Source: Synechococcales cyanobacterium CNB | GTDB lineage: Bacteria; Planctomycetota; Phycisphaerae; Phycisphaerales; UBA1924 | Assembly (NCBI GenBank): GCA_030263455.1 | Contig: SZOZ01000005.1 | Location: 62,001-126,000 of the forward strand | DNA: 64,000 nucleotides | Reading direction: 5' to 3' | Part shown: in pieces, positions 50,308 to 58,392 of the stretch | Position numbering within the stretch: position 1 is the stretch's first letter | How the letters are laid out: each line of letters begins with the position of its first letter | Notes under the pieces: generated by a model | Told to the model about the DNA's origin: nothing | What the model saw: only the letters and a program-made list of their open reading frames with translations | Databases searched by the model: none | Program-made: the position numbers and the translations under genes

Positions 50308-51777
50308 TCACTCGGCGAGCGCTTCACGCAGGGGCGCAAGGTGTGGCTCGTAGTGCGTGTAGCGAGCGACGGCGGTCTTGTAGATCGGTCGGCGAACCTG
50401 GTCCACGCTCGGTGTGAGCACGGGGCGATCGACCGCGTGATGCTCGATCACGGCGTCGTGCCATTCGAGGCCGACGAACTCGATCAGGCGGCGTTTGGTC
50501 TCGTCGGGCCGCTCGACCATGGTCTCGTAGCGAAGTTCAAGGATCGGTACGTCAAGGACCGTGGTCCAGTGGCGCATGACCGTACGATACTCGGCGTACC
50601 AACGCCCGATTGCACGGAGGGAGCCGATGGAGACGTGCGGGCCGCCGAGGTCGTGGAAGTAGCACGAGAGGCAGGTGTCGAGCGGATCGCGGACGCAGTG
50701 AACGATCCTTGCGCTCGGGAACGCGGCCCAGATGAGGCCGAGGTGGAGGTAGTTCTGCGGATTCTTGTCGCTGGCGCGCAAAGCCCCCGGGGCGGCACGG
50801 CGCATGCGTTCGATCCACCGGCGTGCGAAGCGGGTGAGGGGTCGCTCGGCGAGCCGTTCGAGCGAAAAGAAGTGCCACTGTCCGCCCTCGACGCCGTGCT
50901 GAAGTTCGCCGACGAGGGTATGGATGTCGCGCAACTCGCCCGCGCCGTGGAATCGTGGGTGCGCCGAGAGCACCTGTTCGGTCAGCGTGGTGCCGGAGCG
51001 GGGCATGCCGACGATGAAGACGGGCATGTCGCTGGTTTCGAGGCTCCGCGGAAGCGTGCGGATGCGCTCCGGCGTCCAGGCGTCGAGCATGCGGCGGATG
51101 GAAGCGGAATATTCGTCGATGTCGGGACGTTCGCCCTTGATGCGGTTGGCCTCGTCGAAGGCGGCGAAAGCCTCGTCGTAGCGTCTGAGATGGTCGAGCA
51201 GATTGCCGAGGATGAAGAGCGAGGAGATGCGCTGGGGCAGGGGGACGTCCGGTGCGGCGTTCGCGCGGCGGAGCAGATCAACCGCCTGCTCCTCGCGGCC
51301 GACGCGACGGGCGGATTGCCCGAAGGCGATGGCGACGGCGACGTGCGGCGGGTCATCGGCGAGGAACGGCTCGACGGCTGCGGCGGCCTCGTCGTAGCGG
51401 CGCGCCTGGAACAAAACTTCGGATCGGGCTGCGGCCAGGCCCAGGTGGTCGGGCCGACGCGCGAAGGCGGTGTCGAGAACGCCGAGCGCCTCGTCGTATC
51501 GACCCTCGCGGTTGTAGGTCATGGCGAGGAGCTGGAGCAGCTCGGGATCGTCCGGCGTGATCTCGACGCCGCGCCGGGCGTGCTGCCGGGCGTCGGCGTA
51601 ACGCCCGAGGGCGTTGAGACACAGGCCCATGAGATGCCAGGCCCGCGGGTTCGACTTCTCGCGGCGCAGGGCGTCACGGCAGGCGGCTTCCGCGCCGAGC
51701 GGATCGCCGCTCAGGTACAGCCGGAGAGCCTCGTGCAACTGAGGCGAAGGGCGAGCAGTCGCTGGTCGTGGGGGCAT
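50308..51777 (-). CDS. TPR-repeat sulfotransferase
   Basis: A 489-residue fusion. Residues of about 10-235 form tandem TPRs (LYLSGDPLGAEAACRDALR, GLCLNALGRYADARQHARRG, LAMTYNREGRYDEALGVLD and others), and the C-terminal half is a sulfotransferase. The 5'-phosphosulfate-binding loop is MPVFIVGMPRSGTTL; the later HCVRDPLDTCLSCYFHD segment corresponds to the 3'-phosphate site. Such proteins transfer sulfate from PAPS to carbohydrates, peptides or small molecules; TPR-linked ones are common in planctomycetes and proteobacteria. The start at 51777 gives a clean N-terminus; an ATG 11 codons earlier is possible. It is divergent from the M20 gene. Confidence 0.88.
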   Translation of the reverse strand: MPPRPATARPSPQLHEALRLYLSGDPLGAEAACRDALRREKSNPRAWHLMGLCLNALGRYADARQHARRGVEITPDDPELLQLLAMTYNREGRYDEALGVLDTAFARRPDHLGLAAARSEVLFQARRYDEAAAAVEPFLADDPPHVAVAIAFGQSARRVGREEQAVDLLRRANAAPDVPLPQRISSLFILGNLLDHLRRYDEAFAAFDEANRIKGERPDIDEYSASIRRMLDAWTPERIRTLPRSLETSDMPVFIVGMPRSGTTLTEQVLSAHPRFHGAGELRDIHTLVGELQHGVEGGQWHFFSLERLAERPLTRFARRWIERMRRAAPGALRASDKNPQNYLHLGLIWAAFPSARIVHCVRDPLDTCLSCYFHDLGGPHVSIGSLRAIGRWYAEYRTVMRHWTTVLDVPILELRYETMVERPDETKRRLIEFVGLEWHDAVIEHHAVDRPVLTPSVDQVRRPIYKTAVARYTHYEPHLAPLREALAE

Positions 51778-51821
51778 GACGAAAGGCAGGGTAGCGGGCG
51801 TGCGGCGCACGGCAAAGGGCC

Positions 51822-51833: not shown

Positions 51834-53066
51834 ATGCCAACACTCGGCGCGGCGGGACTGTCGGAACGCGAGCACGCCCTGTGTCGCGCCGTGGAGCGAC
51901 GGCGCGACGATCTGCTCGCGGACCTTCGGTTGCACGTCGGGCTGCCGACCGGCGGCAACAACGCGGCGGCGCTGGACGAGACGCGCGAGCGGCTCACGGA
52001 CCGGCTGCGGGCGATCGGCGCGACGGTTGAGCTGATCCCTGGCGATCCGAGGCCGGACTGGCTTTACGGGCAGTCGGGGTCTGGGCCGATCCCGCCGACG
52101 GCCGTGTGCAGGAAGCGATCGAAGCGAGGCGACGCACCGCGTGTGCTGCTTGTCGGTCATCTGGACACGGTGCATGACCCTGCGGGGCCGTTCCGAGAGT
52201 TGACGGTCGGCGCGGACGGCCGGACGGCGACGGGGCCGGGTTGCGTGGACATGAAGGGCGGGCTGGTGATCCTCGTGGCCGCCCTGGAGTCGCTGGTCGA
52301 GTCGGGGATCGACGCGGATTGGACGGTCGTCTTCAACAGCGATGAAGAGACGGGGTCGTACCACTCGGACGCGGTGCTCGCTGCGGAAGCGGTGAAGCAC
52401 GACGCAGGACTGGTTGTCGAGCCTGCCTTGCCGGGCGGCGCGCTGGCGGTCGAGCGGATGGGTTCGGGGCAGTTCTGCCTGCGGACGTACGGACGCTCGG
52501 CGCACGTCGGGCGCGACTTCACGTCGGGAGTGTCGGCGGTGACCGCGCTCGCCCGCTGCCTGATCGAAGTTGCCGAGATGGCGGACGCCGAGCGGGGGAT
52601 GATCACGAACGTCGGGCCGCTCGAGGGCGGGACGGTGACGAACGCCGTGCCGGATCGGGCGCGGGCGTGGGGGAACGTGCGGTTTTCGACGCCTGCATCA
52701 GCCGCCGCGCTGGGGTCCAGGCTCGATGCGCTTGCGACCGGCAGTGACGCCATGCCGCGCGTGGAGGTGCTGCGGAGTTTCAACCGTCCTGCCAAGCCGC
52801 TGACGCCCGGGACAAGCGCGCTGGCGGAACTGGCAAGAACCGCGGCGCAAGCCCTCGGGCAGTCACTCCCGTTCACGAAGACCGGGGGGGTGTGCGACGG
52901 GAACCAGTTGCAGGCGTGCGGGCTGCCGACGATCGACACGCTCGGCGTGCGCGGCGGCGGGCTGCACACGCCGGAGGAGTGGATCGAACTGGCGAGCCTG
53001 GTGGAAAGATGCCAGTTGCTGGCCGTGGTTGTTTCGCGGCTGTCCGAGGGCCGATTGAAGGTGTGA
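51834..53066 (+). CDS. M20 family amidohydrolase/desuccinylase candidate
   Basis: A 410-residue di-zinc M20 peptidase (the family of ArgE, DapE and carboxypeptidase G2). Metal-site motifs are GHLDTVHDP (His109, Asp111), GPGCVDMKGG (Asp139), NSDEETGS (Glu171/172) and the dimerisation-domain SAHVG; a late GGVCDGNQLQACGLPTIDTLGVRGGGLHTPEEW segment carries the last histidine. Family members remove N-acyl groups from amino acids. As the first gene of the astA-astD cluster, it is a good candidate to release succinate from succinylglutamate, a step normally done by AstE of another family (M14). That is inference. The aminotransferase gene starts 62 bases downstream. Confidence 0.88.
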   Translation: MPTLGAAGLSEREHALCRAVERRRDDLLADLRLHVGLPTGGNNAAALDETRERLTDRLRAIGATVELIPGDPRPDWLYGQSGSGPIPPTAVCRKRSKRGDAPRVLLVGHLDTVHDPAGPFRELTVGADGRTATGPGCVDMKGGLVILVAALESLVESGIDADWTVVFNSDEETGSYHSDAVLAAEAVKHDAGLVVEPALPGGALAVERMGSGQFCLRTYGRSAHVGRDFTSGVSAVTALARCLIEVAEMADAERGMITNVGPLEGGTVTNAVPDRARAWGNVRFSTPASAAALGSRLDALATGSDAMPRVEVLRSFNRPAKPLTPGTSALAELARTAAQALGQSLPFTKTGGVCDGNQLQACGLPTIDTLGVRGGGLHTPEEWIELASLVERCQLLAVVVSRLSEGRLKV

Positions 53067-53128
53067 GCGCGCCCGCTGGACGGCGTGGAGCCGGTGGGCC
53101 AAGGATGCCCCGCCGGGAAAGGACCGAT

Positions 53129-54586
53129 ATGTCGCAGACCGTGCAGACGCCGACGACGCAGGGAAGCCAGTTGCACGCCAGCCCGGCGGTTCGGGAGGCG
53201 ATCGGTGTGCTGCGCGAGGAGGTGCGCAGGCGCAGCGCGACGATCACCGGGCCGCGCGCGGGGCGCGAGGAGTTGCGGGAGACCTACGCGGACCTGCTCG
53301 AACGGGCGAAGAAGGTTCGCGGGCGCGAGCTGCTGTACCCGTACATCGGCTCGGGCGTGGGCAACGGCGCGCTGGTGGAACTCGCGGACGGTTCGGTGAA
53401 GTGGGACATGATCTGCGGGATCGGGGTCCACTTCTTCGGGCACTCGGACGAGGAGTTGATCGCTGCGGGGGTGGAGGGCGCGCTGGAGGACACGCTGCAG
53501 AACGGGAATCTGCAGACGAACTTCGAGGCGTACCGGTTCGGTGAGACGCTGCTGGCCGAGGCGTCGCGCAGCACGAGGCTGGCGCACTGCTACGCCTCGC
53601 CGACGGGCGCGCTGGCGAACGAGAACGCGCTGAAGGTCTGCTACCAGAAGCACGCCCCAGCGAGCCGAGTGCTTGCATTCAAGGACTGCTTCATGGGGCG
53701 GACGGTGACGCTCTCGCAGATCGGCGACGCCGCGGCGAACCGGGTGGGGCTGCCGCTGAGCACGCTCGTGGACTACGTGCCGTTCTACAGCGAGGTGGTC
53801 GCGGAGCGTGTGGGGCAGGCGAAGCACATCGGCATGATCGTCGATCACGTCTGCTCGTACGTGGAGCGGTACCCGCGCCAGCACGCGTGCTTCATCATGG
53901 AACTTGTGCAGGGCGAGGGCGGCTTCAACACCGCGCCGCGCGAGTTCTTCCTCGCGCTGGTCGAGGTCTGCCGGGCGAACGGCATCGCGGTGTGGGCCGA
54001 CGAGGTGCAGACGTTCGGACGCACGACAGCGATGTTCGCGGCCGAGGCGCTGGGCATCGGCGAGCACGTGGACGTGATGACCGTAGGCAAGATGTCGCAG
54101 GTGTGCGCGACGCTCTACACGCCGGAATACAACCCCGGCCCCGGGCTGCTCTCGGCGACCTTCACCGGCGCGGGGCCCGCGTTCACGGTCGGGCGGAGGA
54201 TCATCGAACGCCTCCGCGACGGGGATTACTACGGCCCTGGCGGACGCATCGCGCAGCATCACGCCGCGTTCCGCGAGCAGGTGCGCGCTCTGGCCGCGAA
54301 GCATCCGCAGTGGTTCCCGCCGGTCGCGGACGGGGTGCTGACGCCCGCGCCGAAGGGGGTCGTGGGGGGGATCGGTGGGATGATGCGGTTCAGCCCGTTC
54401 GGCGGGCGGAAGGAACGGATCACGAAGGCGTGCCGCACCTGCTTCGATGAAGGTGTGATTCTCTTTTCCTGCGGGCACGGGCCGTACCACCTGCGGATGC
54501 TCCCGCCTTTGGGCGTGATGCGGCTGGAGGACTGGTCGCGGGTGTTCGAGTGCGTGGAGCGCGGGTTGGCGAAGGCGGCATCGTGA
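53129..54586 (+). CDS. Class III pyridoxal-phosphate aminotransferase
   Basis: A 485-residue class III aminotransferase. The PLP lysine is Lys321 in VMTVGKMSQVC, preceded by the cofactor-binding VWADEVQTFGRT (Asp holding the pyridine N) and earlier CYASPTGALANENALK, which replaces the usual SGxEAxExAxK. The GKxxQVC active-site loop resembles that of lysine 6-transaminases more than that of the AstC/ArgD group. In this cluster it is the natural candidate for succinylornithine aminotransferase (the AstC step), giving the semialdehyde that AstD oxidises. Substrate could also be ornithine, lysine or 4-aminobutyrate. AAAGGA six bases before the ATG supports the start. Confidence 0.88.
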   Translation: MSQTVQTPTTQGSQLHASPAVREAIGVLREEVRRRSATITGPRAGREELRETYADLLERAKKVRGRELLYPYIGSGVGNGALVELADGSVKWDMICGIGVHFFGHSDEELIAAGVEGALEDTLQNGNLQTNFEAYRFGETLLAEASRSTRLAHCYASPTGALANENALKVCYQKHAPASRVLAFKDCFMGRTVTLSQIGDAAANRVGLPLSTLVDYVPFYSEVVAERVGQAKHIGMIVDHVCSYVERYPRQHACFIMELVQGEGGFNTAPREFFLALVEVCRANGIAVWADEVQTFGRTTAMFAAEALGIGEHVDVMTVGKMSQVCATLYTPEYNPGPGLLSATFTGAGPAFTVGRRIIERLRDGDYYGPGGRIAQHHAAFREQVRALAAKHPQWFPPVADGVLTPAPKGVVGGIGGMMRFSPFGGRKERITKACRTCFDEGVILFSCGHGPYHLRMLPPLGVMRLEDWSRVFECVERGLAKAAS

Positions 54587-54617
54587 TGATCGTCTGTCGG
54601 CGTGCAGGGAGGCTCGT

Positions 54618-55787
54618 GTGATCGTCATCCGTCGGGCGAGGGTCGAGGACGCGGGCACGCTGCTGAAACTGGCGCGGATGGTGCACTTCATCAATCTGCC
54701 GGCTGACAAGGAACTGATCGACCTGAAGATCACGCAGAGCCGCCTCTCGTTCCTGCGGGCGGCGTCGGGCGAGAGGCCGCCGGGAGACAACGGGGCGGCA
54801 CGAAAGCCGGAGAAGCCGGTCGGCGTGACCGGCCTTTCGTCGGCGGACTTCACGCGAGACATCTTCATGTTCGTGGCCGAGAGCCGGGAGGACCGCACCG
54901 CGCTCGGCACCTCGCAGGTGCTGGCGCGGATGGGTGGGCCGGGCAACCCGAACTACTCGTTCAAACTGGAGCAGCGATCGACCTTCGCGCCGGACCTGAA
55001 GACGGGCACGACGCACGTCGTCGCCCGGTTGCACGGCGACGAGACCGGGCCGACGGAGATCGGTGGGCTGATCCTGCAGCCGGCGTCGCGTGGGCACCGG
55101 GTGGGGCGGTTCTTGAGCTTCGTGCGATTCCACTTCATCGCGCTGCACCGGCACCTCTTCGCGGACCGTATCCTGGCGGAGATGATGGCGCCCATCACCG
55201 AGGACGGGCGGAGCCTGCTGTGGGAGTACCTCGGCCGACGGTTCATCCCTCTGAGCTACACCGAAGCGGATAAGCAGTGCCAACGCTCGCGGAAGTTCAT
55301 CCCTGCGCTGCTGCCGTCGGGAGACATCTACCTGTCGCTGCTCCCTCCCGAAGCGCGCGACGTCGTGGGTGAGGTTGGGCCGGAGACGGTGCCGGCGCGC
55401 CGGATGCTGGAGCGGCTGGGCTTCCAGTACACGGGGTTCGTTGATCCGTTCGACGGCGGCCCGCTGCTTGAAACACGAACGGACGACGTGCCGATCATCC
55501 GCGCGACGCGAGAGGCGGAACTCGGCGAGCCGGCGGCGAGGAGCAAGTGTCGGCAGCCCGCGATGGTGAGCACGCTGCACCAGGACGGGGAGTTCTATGC
55601 CGTGCAGGAGGACTGCTGCATCGACTCGAAGGGCCGCGTCTGCCTGCCTCGCGAGGCGATGGAGTCGCTGCACGGCGAGCCGGGGATGGCGGCGGGTTAC
55701 ACCGACATGGCGTCGATCGCGAGCGATGAGTCTCCGCCCGCTCGCGGCGGGGCGAAGCGCAGGGCGAAGGCGGGGGCGAGGCCGTGA
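54618..55787 (+). CDS. astA: Arginine N-succinyltransferase
   Basis: A 389-residue AstA, which transfers a succinyl group from succinyl-CoA to the alpha-amine of arginine, the first step of the AST catabolic pathway. Matching segments are the start IVIRRARVEDAGTLLKLA, the GTSQVLARMGGPGNPNYSF loop, the GxGRFLSFVRFHF region, and the later ALLPSGDIYLSLLPPEARDVVGEVGPET with RMLERLGFQYTGFVDPFDGGP. It is longer than the 340-residue E. coli enzyme by a 20-residue Pro/Lys loop (about 50-75) and a C-terminal basic tail of about 30. GTG start after GGGAGG; it overlaps astD by four bases (GTGA), so the two are coupled. Confidence 0.92.
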   Translation: MIVIRRARVEDAGTLLKLARMVHFINLPADKELIDLKITQSRLSFLRAASGERPPGDNGAARKPEKPVGVTGLSSADFTRDIFMFVAESREDRTALGTSQVLARMGGPGNPNYSFKLEQRSTFAPDLKTGTTHVVARLHGDETGPTEIGGLILQPASRGHRVGRFLSFVRFHFIALHRHLFADRILAEMMAPITEDGRSLLWEYLGRRFIPLSYTEADKQCQRSRKFIPALLPSGDIYLSLLPPEARDVVGEVGPETVPARRMLERLGFQYTGFVDPFDGGPLLETRTDDVPIIRATREAELGEPAARSKCRQPAMVSTLHQDGEFYAVQEDCCIDSKGRVCLPREAMESLHGEPGMAAGYTDMASIASDESPPARGGAKRRAKAGARP

Positions 55788-57337
55788 GCGTACGTCATCC
55801 GTCGCTTGCGCGCGAATGCGCCGACCTGATCGCGGGGGAGTGGATTCCGCTGCCGAGGGGGGGCATCCGATCGGTCAATCCTGCCCGTCCGGCGGCGGCG
55901 GTGTGGGAGGGGTCGGCACGGCTGGAGCATGTTGACAGGGCCGTCGAGGCGGCGCGGGCGGCGCAGTCCGCATGGGCGGCGTGGCCTGCGGAGCGGCGCT
56001 TCGGCGCGCTGCGGACCTACCGTGATCTCTGCAAGGCAAACGAGGACCGGATCGCCGCGCTCATCCGGGATGAGACTGGCAAGGTCGGCTGGGATGCGAA
56101 GGGCGAGGCTTCCGCGCTGGCGGCGAAGGTGGACGTGACACTGGACGCGACGGAGCACGGCGGGCTGCGTCGCGTCGCGGGGTTCGAGGTCGACCTGGGC
56201 GGGTCCAAGCGCGGCCGCTGCTGGTTCCGCCCGCACGGGGTGATGGCGGTGATCGCCCCGTTCAACTTCCCGATGCACCTGCCGAACGGACACGCGGTTC
56301 CCGCGCTGGCGATGGGCAATACGGTGGTCATCAAGCCCAGCGACAAGACGCCGGCCTGCGGGCAGTTGCTGGCGGAGTTACTGGACGAGGCTCTGCGAGG
56401 AGCGGGTGCGCCGCCGGGCGTCGTGAACCTCGTGCAGGGGGGGGCCGAGGCTGCGTCGCGGCTGGTCACGCACGACGGGATCGACGGCGTGCTGTTCACG
56501 GGGTCGTGGCCGGTGGGTCGGCGGATTCTGGAGTCGAACCTCGACCGGCCGGGACGGATCATCGCGCTGGAAATGGGCGGGAACAACCCGGCCGTCGTGA
56601 TGGACGACTGCGGCCTGCGACAGGCGGTGGTGGAGTGCGTTCGCTCGGCGTTCGTGACGACGGGTCAGCGGTGCACCTGCACGCGGCGCGTCATCGTGCA
56701 TAGGGCGGTGGCGGGCCGGTTCATCGCGGCCGTGTGCAAGGTGACGAGCAACCTGATCATCGGCGACCCGGCCGCGCCGCACCCCGTCTTCATGGGGCCG
56801 ATCATCTCGGAGCAGGCGCGGCGTGCCGCACTCGACGCGCAGGCCCGTTTCGCGCGCGCCGGCGGCGAGGTGATGGTCGAGAGTCGGGCGGTGGAGGCAC
56901 AAGAAGGTGGGTTCTTCATTTCGCCGGGTGTCGTACGCGTCGATCGCTTCACGGCCGACGATGGCGGCGGGGCGGGGTGCGACGAGGAGGTCTTTGGTCC
57001 CATGCTTCGGGTCGCCGTAACGGATTCGCTCGACGATGCGATCGAGCAGGCGAACACGACGCGCTTCGGCCTCGCGGCCTCGATCTTCACGCGCAGCGAA
57101 CGCCACGCGGAGCGGTTCTTCAACGCCGTGCGGGCAGGCTGCGTGAACCTGAACGCCGGCACGGCCGGCGCAAGCAGTCGCTTGCCCTTCGGCGGGCTGG
57201 GCATTTCGGGCAACCATCGTCCGGCGGGGTCGTTCAGCCTCGACTACTGCGCGTACCCGGTGGCCGGGATGATCGAGACCGGCGACGCGGCCGCGGTGCA
57301 CCCGGGCATGCGCGTCGAGGACTCGTGGCTGGCATAA
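55784..57337 (+). CDS. astD: N-succinylglutamate 5-semialdehyde dehydrogenase
   Basis: A 517-residue aldehyde dehydrogenase of the AstD type, oxidising N-succinylglutamate semialdehyde to succinylglutamate with NAD. The NAD-binding region has APFNFPMHLPNGH and IKPSDKTP; the general-base Glu is in ALEMGGNNP and the nucleophilic Cys in TTGQRCTCTRR, whose GQRCTC pattern is characteristic of AstD. The C-terminal EEVFGPMLRV and GSFSLDYCAYP segments also match. GTG start in a four-base overlap with astA, so co-translation is expected. It shows extra length at the C-terminus. Confidence 0.94.
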   Translation: MSVRHPSLARECADLIAGEWIPLPRGGIRSVNPARPAAAVWEGSARLEHVDRAVEAARAAQSAWAAWPAERRFGALRTYRDLCKANEDRIAALIRDETGKVGWDAKGEASALAAKVDVTLDATEHGGLRRVAGFEVDLGGSKRGRCWFRPHGVMAVIAPFNFPMHLPNGHAVPALAMGNTVVIKPSDKTPACGQLLAELLDEALRGAGAPPGVVNLVQGGAEAASRLVTHDGIDGVLFTGSWPVGRRILESNLDRPGRIIALEMGGNNPAVVMDDCGLRQAVVECVRSAFVTTGQRCTCTRRVIVHRAVAGRFIAAVCKVTSNLIIGDPAAPHPVFMGPIISEQARRAALDAQARFARAGGEVMVESRAVEAQEGGFFISPGVVRVDRFTADDGGGAGCDEEVFGPMLRVAVTDSLDDAIEQANTTRFGLAASIFTRSERHAERFFNAVRAGCVNLNAGTAGASSRLPFGGLGISGNHRPAGSFSLDYCAYPVAGMIETGDAAAVHPGMRVEDSWLA

Positions 57338-57426
57338 TGCGCGGGAGACCTTCCCGTCCTGGAGCATGTCGTGAGAACCCGGGAGTGCGCCTGGACCGAG
57401 GGTGATGGCACCGCGAGGAGTTCGAC

Positions 57427-58392
57427 ATGCCGACGATGCTGCCCGATCCGCGTCAGTACCCCCGGTTCGCCGGCGTGGCGACGTTCTGCCGCTACCCGCT
57501 GCTGGAATGGGTCGCGCCCGAGCATCGTCCGGTGGACTGGGCGATCTACGGCGTGCCGTTCGATGGGGGCGTGACGTTCCGGCCCGGCGCGCGGTTCGGG
57601 CCACGGGCGGTGCGGGACGCCTCGCAGTACGTCAAGCGGTACTCGATGGAGCACGGGCTGGATCTGTGCGAGGAGCTGAGCCTTGCGGACGCGGGGGATG
57701 CGCCGGTGCAGCCGTACTCCTGCCGCGCGACGGCAGAGGCGGCGACGGCGTTCGCACGCGGGCTGGGCGAGCCGTCGCACACGCGGCTGTTCGCGGTTGG
57801 TGGCGATCACTCCATTGCTTACGCAAACGTGCGGGCGACGTGGGAGCGGCGCGGCTCGCCGAAGGGCGGTCTGGCACTCGTGCACTTCGACGCGCACTTC
57901 GACACCGTGGACCAGGTATGGGGCGAGCGGTGGGGGCATGCCTCGCCGTTCATCCGGGCGGTTGAGGAGGGGATGATCGACCCGAAGCGGATGATCTCGG
58001 TCGGCATCCGCGGGCCGCTGAACACGTGCGAGGACGCCGAGTATGCCCCGAAGCACGGCGTTCGGATCGTGACCTGCAACGAGTGGCGACGGAGCGGGAA
58101 CGGCGTGCTCGAACGGTTCGTCGCGGAACTGGGCGGAGCGGAGGCGTACCTGAGTTTCGATGTGGACTGCTGCGATCCCGCCTTCGCGCCCGGCACGGGG
58201 ACGCACGCGATCGGCGGCTTCGCGTCGCACGAGGCGCTCGGGGCGATCCGTTCGCTGCGGGGGCTGAACGTGGTGGGGGCGGACGTGGTGGAAGTGCTGC
58301 CCGACCGTGACGTGGCGGAGATCACCGCGCTGTTGGCCGGGACGGTGATCTTCGAGGTGCTGTGCCTCGACGCGGTGCGTCGCCGGAAGTAG
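57427..58392 (+). CDS. Ureohydrolase (agmatinase/arginase family)
   Basis: A 321-residue di-manganese ureohydrolase. The metal-ligand motifs are complete: GGDHS (His128), DAHFD (Asp155, His157, Asp159) and DVDCCDP (Asp245, Asp247, Asp250), with PAFAPGTGT following as in agmatinases. It hydrolyses a guanidine to an amine and urea. Annotation by family would be agmatinase, but no arginine decarboxylase is in the window, whereas it is the last gene of a cluster for succinylated arginine. It could supply the step of the missing succinylarginine dihydrolase (AstB) by releasing urea. A GAGGAG site precedes the ATG. Its 3' end overlaps the convergent zincin gene by 71 bases. Confidence 0.9.
   Translation: MPTMLPDPRQYPRFAGVATFCRYPLLEWVAPEHRPVDWAIYGVPFDGGVTFRPGARFGPRAVRDASQYVKRYSMEHGLDLCEELSLADAGDAPVQPYSCRATAEAATAFARGLGEPSHTRLFAVGGDHSIAYANVRATWERRGSPKGGLALVHFDAHFDTVDQVWGERWGHASPFIRAVEEGMIDPKRMISVGIRGPLNTCEDAEYAPKHGVRIVTCNEWRRSGNGVLERFVAELGGAEAYLSFDVDCCDPAFAPGTGTHAIGGFASHEALGAIRSLRGLNVVGADVVEVLPDRDVAEITALLAGTVIFEVLCLDAVRRRK

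Follow-up and report, generated by a model that had tools for sequence, protein, structure and literature searches.

A 64,000-nucleotide stretch of contig SZOZ01000005.1 (hereafter the window), from the Phycisphaerales genome deposited as Synechococcales cyanobacterium CNB, carries a gene cluster that likely encodes a form of the arginine succinyltransferase (AST) pathway in which the guanidino group would leave as urea. The cluster is a plus-strand run of five intact open reading frames (ORFs) at positions 51834-58392. These encode an M20 metallohydrolase (51834-53066), a class III aminotransferase (AT3; 53129-54586), arginine N-succinyltransferase (astA; 54618-55787), a probable succinylglutamate-semialdehyde dehydrogenase (astD; 55784-57337) and a ureohydrolase (UH; 57427-58392). 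In the proposed route, AstA would convert arginine to N2-succinylarginine, which UH, a dinuclear-metal enzyme, would split into N2-succinylornithine and urea. AT3 would transaminate succinylornithine and AstD would oxidize the resulting semialdehyde, giving succinylglutamate, from which the M20 enzyme would release succinate and glutamate. UH would replace AstB, whose reaction gives off two ammonia and CO2, and the M20 enzyme would replace AstE. The substrates of UH, AT3 and the M20 enzyme are predicted; the pathway would be a known one in a new form, with UH as a predicted new enzyme activity. Among the titles and abstract openings listed in a literature search, with subscription journals mostly outside its reach, none described a urea-releasing AST route.

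The first-pass annotation of this DNA had raised the possibility that astB lies elsewhere in the genome. This was rejected, as the window genome (G000; 17 contigs, 98.7% complete) contained no match to the AstB family PF04996, with the E. coli control detected. Across an even draw of 201 genomes from the same order, AstA was found in 145, AstB in 72 and UH, counted as a close match of 51-100% identity, in 71. Among the 145 AstA genomes, 68 had AstB only, 71 had UH only, none had both and six had neither (Fisher p = 1.2e-34, without correction for kinship). AstA accompanied UH in all 71 UH genomes; four AstB genomes were without AstA. It follows from this exclusion that UH either does AstB's job or makes AstB needless. 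If it does that job, UH fills a pathway gap in about half (71/145) of the AstA genomes in this order. The UH count excludes matches of 35% identity in G407 and G425 (E about 1e-42) and a second, 39% match in G534. It includes a partial copy in G548 and copies with one reported internal stop in G368, G474, G501, G435 and G393. The AstB count takes in fragmentary matches from G364 and G399, and one split into two pieces from G397. Many of the assemblies consist of numerous contigs, and most of the named relatives are metagenome-assembled; as a result, linkage comes out too low and a small number of the absences may reflect gaps in the assemblies.

The alternation between AstB and UH also held on a phylogeny. 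A quick tree with SH-aLRT support was computed from the AT3, AstA and AstD proteins of 105 loci (67 with UH, 32 with AstB and six with neither). From the 145 AstA genomes 108 loci had been fetched, of which G231, G242 and G356 were left out, their AstA being nearer to the E. coli query than to that of the window. The tree is made from the cluster's own genes and would be misled by transfer of the whole cluster. Its supported branches force at least eight switches between AstB and UH. Some fall within single genera: g2 has five AstB genomes and one UH genome (G423), g311 has four UH and three AstB genomes, and g342 has one of each (G514 with UH, G502 with AstB). Eleven independent pairs among the 105 rows differed in UH. 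AstB differed in the opposite direction in 7.6 of these on average, in the same direction in none, and did not differ in 3.4, which are the pairs containing a row with neither gene (sign test, p 0.008-0.016). SpeA, used as a control in the same pair test, showed no trend (median p 1).

Gene order also connects UH to the pathway. UH lay inside the fetched ast stretch at 36 of the 67 UH loci, and in all 36 it was the next AST gene after astD, on the same strand in 35 and no more than 150 bases away in 19. Outside the order, 15 AstA genomes were fetched; nine had AstB in the stretch and none had UH. AstB followed AstD in four of the nine (L063, L066, L067 and L069), and the other five had the order AstB-AstD-AstA. 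Two loci, L063 and L069, read M20-AT3-AstA-AstD-AstB, which is the order of the window with AstB in the place of UH. The five-gene order of the window itself recurs in relatives, and since M20-AT3-AstA-AstD is seen there again, the arrangement is not due to chance. Considering the exclusion, the alternation on the tree and the position as the AST gene that follows astD, UH very likely represents a non-orthologous replacement of AstB.

A wider scan of named genomes, covering the best 80 of 588 relatives, bears on the distribution of UH. It contained 21 loci at 60-68% identity (L076-L096), all with planctomycetal titles except L092, which is titled 'uncultured bacterium'. The next relatives in this set reached at most 46% identity and came from Actinobacteria, Proteobacteria and others. 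For these 59 remoter loci, the flanking DNA covered, which reached 9 kb at most in either direction, showed no AstA.

UH belongs to the Arginase family (PF00491, 257.8 bits) and, as the first-pass annotation had read from the translation, has the full metal-ligand set. The superfamily residues H128, D155, H157, D159, D245 and D247 and the catalytic H171 and E289 are invariant in 68 of 68 rows of the UH clade. This clade is a single lineage (SH-aLRT 100) on a long stem of 0.48 and is sister to proclavaminate amidino hydrolase (SH-aLRT 88). W38, Y68, N134 and R294 are nearly confined to it, and S173 and N199 are characteristic of the clade but are seen in 14% of other rows as well. Solved guanidino-acid hydrolases outscored agmatinases as matches to UH, the nearest by sequence being guanidinopropionase, proclavaminate amidino hydrolase and guanidinobutyrase. 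In a Foldseek search with an AlphaFold2 model of UH (mean pLDDT 89.8), guanidinopropionase and proclavaminate amidino hydrolase were the best matches, with guanidinobutyrase also among them. Proclavaminate amidino hydrolase of Streptomyces clavuligerus (1GQ6) is of the same superfamily (208 bits, TM-score 0.86) and acts on a derivative of N2-substituted arginine in secondary metabolism. It has H, N and P where UH has K70, V161 and N199. The guanidinopropionase (3NIP) and guanidinobutyrase (3NIO) of Pseudomonas aeruginosa, at 38-39% and 35% identity to UH in the fold alignment, share a basic residue (R) at the K70 position but have Y and N for N199 and V161.

K70, present in 67 of the 68 rows, aligns with R72 of GbuA. 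According to PMC9772407, R72 extends into the neighbouring active site as a cap, from where it could contact the carboxylate of the substrate; K70 is thus one point in favour of succinylarginine. It stands beside the column aligned with Trp68 of E. coli agmatinase, a residue that PMC8125230 places at the mouth of the site and that is not conserved in all agmatinases. Trp68 is not matched in UH, where the four commonest residues over the 68 rows are P (36), R (23), H (3) and A (3).

Several observations weigh against UH as a succinylarginine hydrolase in the place of AstB. UH narrowly passes the agmatinase equivalog TIGR01230 (185.3 bits, cut-off 174.3), and agmatine is probably available in UH genomes, given that SpeA is found in 63 of 71. 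A basic residue at the K70 position is common in relatives, 60 of the 95 non-clade rows having R; K70 is therefore no proof of a succinylarginine substrate and marks guanidino-acid hydrolases at large. In 31 of 67 genomes the fetched ast stretch did not contain UH, and AstB is itself mostly unlinked in this order, with 33 of 35 AstB stretches holding none. The swap is therefore one of gene content and not an exchange in place. Neither gene is present in six AstA genomes. Two of these, G342 (L062) and G422 (L252), have M20-AT3-AstA-AstD, and the ORFs of at least 200 amino acids behind astD include no evident substitute; these genomes may handle the guanidino step in a third way. Column 379 of the M20 alignment (T or R) tracks the AstB/UH state. 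Lastly, pseudomonad relatives of AstA also accept ornithine, and hydrolysis of arginine before succinylation is chemically possible.

That last order of events is the main rival explanation: UH would turn free arginine into ornithine and urea, AstA would succinylate the ornithine, and AstB would be superfluous. It would also account for the exclusion of AstB and the linkage to astA, and the window AstA does match the arginine/ornithine model TIGR03245, at 144.1 bits and far under the cut-off of 458.8. We nevertheless consider it unlikely, as UH has little resemblance to arginases, scoring only 62.8 bits with the arginase model TIGR01229 (cut-off 227.6). PMC8125230 names Asn130 of human arginase as a determinant of arginine specificity; at this position UH has V161, and the clade has V in 59, L in 4, A in 4 and I in 1 of the 68 rows, with the caveat that three non-arginase relatives also carry Asn there. 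A second caveat, also from PMC8125230, is that arginase loops moved into E. coli agmatinase gave no arginase activity.

An arginase acting first would also require AstA to change substrate at each of the at least eight switches, and no AstA column tracks the state. In its alignment, conservation reaches 95% or more in 41 columns, in UH genomes as in AstB genomes; 32 of these columns have the same residue in E. coli AstA, and none of the alignment discriminates the two groups at the 70% level. Sister pairs that differ in AstB and UH keep similar AstA proteins, with identities of 85% (G502/G514), 83% (G406/G469), 81% (G423/G172) and 67% (G535/G507). Considering that AstA has no column separating the two states and that UH is unlike arginase, action of UH on succinylarginine appears to be the best reading of these sequences.

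UH could also be an ordinary agmatinase, an alternative that the first-pass annotation had named, in which case its place near astA and its alternation with AstB would have some other cause. The equivalog score given above and the presence of SpeA on another contig of the window genome are in line with this, but the reading is very improbable. The genome has a second gene that passes the agmatinase model, L002 (185.5 bits), and UH is found only together with AstA (71/71). SpeA alternates with neither UH nor AstB, and the residue at position 70 is lysine in UH but alanine in E. coli agmatinase. The idea that UH hydrolyses another guanidino acid of a parallel arginine route, such as 4-guanidinobutyrate, in a cluster that merely pools arginine-degrading genes, agrees with its neighbours in sequence and fold, but it is hardly credible, since it leaves the absence of AstB wherever UH occurs unexplained and gives no account of how succinylarginine is processed in 71 AstA genomes without AstB.

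A tie between UH and polyamine synthesis was also considered and rejected. SpeA is widespread among UH genomes (63 of 71) as well as AstB genomes (51 of 72); on the tree, 60 of the 67 UH rows and 24 of the 32 AstB rows have it, and it alternates with neither gene. Genes recurring near the unlinked UH copies in 31 stretches, named by reading without a family scan, included none readable as a partner in arginine or polyamine metabolism. Relatives of L002 at about 47% identity are found in one AstB genome (L282, G002) and one UH genome (L291, G423). The third ureohydrolase of the window genome, L003 (G000:C11), has HutG as its best model at 163.3 bits, below the cut-off of 229. It adjoins an amidohydrolase gene (PF01979) that reads like HutI, and histidine use may be present in this genome.

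We next compare the cluster with astCADBE of E. coli. The five same-strand genes and the GTGA overlap between the end of astA and the start of astD, described in the first-pass annotation, were borne out by the ORFs and by Pfam matches to Peptidase_M20 (86.9 bits), Aminotran_3 (124.9), AstA (270.7), Aldedh (377.8) and Arginase. As in E. coli, AstA is clustered with what is probably AstD, and the chemistry before and after the guanidino step is presumably the same. Unlike in E. coli, the window genome is without AstB and without a convincing AstE, the aminotransferase is remote from AstC, and the roles of AstE and AstB would fall to an M20 enzyme and a ureohydrolase. Judged by these family assignments, the cluster is not a canonical AST operon, lacking the features of AstB, an AstC-type transaminase and AstE, and is predicted to work like one.

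The window AstA, whose gene starts with GTG, is a member of PF04958, scoring 270.7 bits against a cut-off of 29.4, and falls under the cut-off of 391 for the equivalog TIGR03244 (174.5 bits). The PF04958 match breaks before residue 80, with the best stretch at 80-357. The same break is seen in several relatives of family f1 and points to an insertion near the N-terminus. Some genomes have more than one AstA: G242:C38 holds two paralogues on a single contig (L047 and L048), one with M20, AT3 and AstD and the other alone, and G410, G416 and G446 likewise have two matches each. The best NCBIfam models for the astD product are both AstD models, PRK09457 (468.6 bits, cut-off 514) and TIGR03240 (447.2 bits, cut-off 579.3), and it scores below the cut-off of each.

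AT3, which starts with ATG at 53129, belongs to the class III aminotransferases (PF00202) as first annotated, and its likeness to AstC proved only remote: with the AstC-type model PRK12381 it scores 61.5 bits, where the cut-off is 630. The cluster therefore has no AstC-type transaminase by this model, the other aminotransferases of the genome not having been searched, and AT3 is a putative succinylornithine transaminase from outside the AstC family. It is found in 54 of 67 UH stretches and 30 of 35 AstB stretches, and no column of its alignment tracks the AstB/UH state.

The M20 enzyme (PF01546 and PF07687) is a candidate succinylglutamate desuccinylase. Its nearest NCBIfam model is PRK07338, a hydrolase (332 bits, cut-off 357), and PRK06133, a glutamate carboxypeptidase, is third. 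Residues H109, D139, E171, E172, E196 and H378, which we take to be the zinc-ligand set of M20 enzymes, are conserved at 95% or more over 67 rows. The nearest solved group by sequence is carboxypeptidase G2 (1CG2; 88.5 bits). That enzyme splits glutamate off N-acyl-glutamates, an activity that fits succinylglutamate; unlike it, the M20 gene sits in an AST cluster, and its substrate is predicted.

AstE was sought elsewhere in the window genome, as the first-pass annotation had suggested, and neither PF04952 nor TIGR03242 gave a match. The sole match to PF24827, L075 (34 bits, cut-off 25), was rejected as a hidden AstE because it scores higher as Peptidase_M14 (57.6 bits) and MpaA (87.1 bits). 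L075 encodes 257 amino acids with a start that reads like a lipoprotein signal, and its score as an MpaA-type amidase is below that model's cut-off of 157. TIGR03242 was above cut-off in none of the 201 genomes, with weak matches of up to 46 bits in 33. The M20 gene is found in 47 of 67 UH stretches and 21 of 35 AstB stretches. Since M20 and AT3 are common to both groups and AstE is above cut-off in none, M20 in place of AstE looks like a trait of the whole group, with AstB or UH as the variable step. Of the two replacements proposed at first, that of AstB by the ureohydrolase is thus upheld by the exclusion in the 145 AstA genomes, while that of AstE by M20 is not tied to the ureohydrolase.

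A search for urea-using enzymes that was limited to urease alpha gave matches in 8 of the 201 genomes, 7 of them above cut-off; neither the window genome nor any of the 71 UH genomes had one. The urea is therefore probably excreted, unless another urea-using enzyme exists. Taken together, we think it reasonably likely that UH has a new activity, N2-succinylarginine ureohydrolase, in a pathway with three of the five textbook enzymes (AstB, AstC and AstE) exchanged for unrelated or distant ones and at least eight switches at the guanidino step, and that the urea-releasing form lacks urease and excretes its urea. Such an activity would be predicted for a whole clade that NCBI models would label agmatinase. 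Arginine breakdown would then yield urea, usable by urease-bearing neighbours, instead of ammonia. Excretion would suit the use of arginine for carbon and energy, and less so the nitrogen scavenging that is a role of AST in E. coli. Repeated swaps between a hydrolase releasing two ammonia and one releasing urea would amount to a natural experiment on nitrogen economy.

In two f3 genomes of this taxonomic order, two ureohydrolase genes lie side by side, at G407:C1:69642-71697 (L288) and G425:C260:1683-3869 (L287), and the G407 pair lies about 7 kb from urease alpha (C1:61957-62316). These pairs recall the two-subunit metformin hydrolases and may form a set leading from guanidine to urea to ammonia. 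In the window, the cluster is preceded by a divergent gene at 50308-51810, which encodes a protein that combines TPR repeats with a sulfotransferase domain (PF13469, 153 bits). Its start is 23 bases from that of the M20 gene, so whatever promoter drives the cluster would overlap with this gene.

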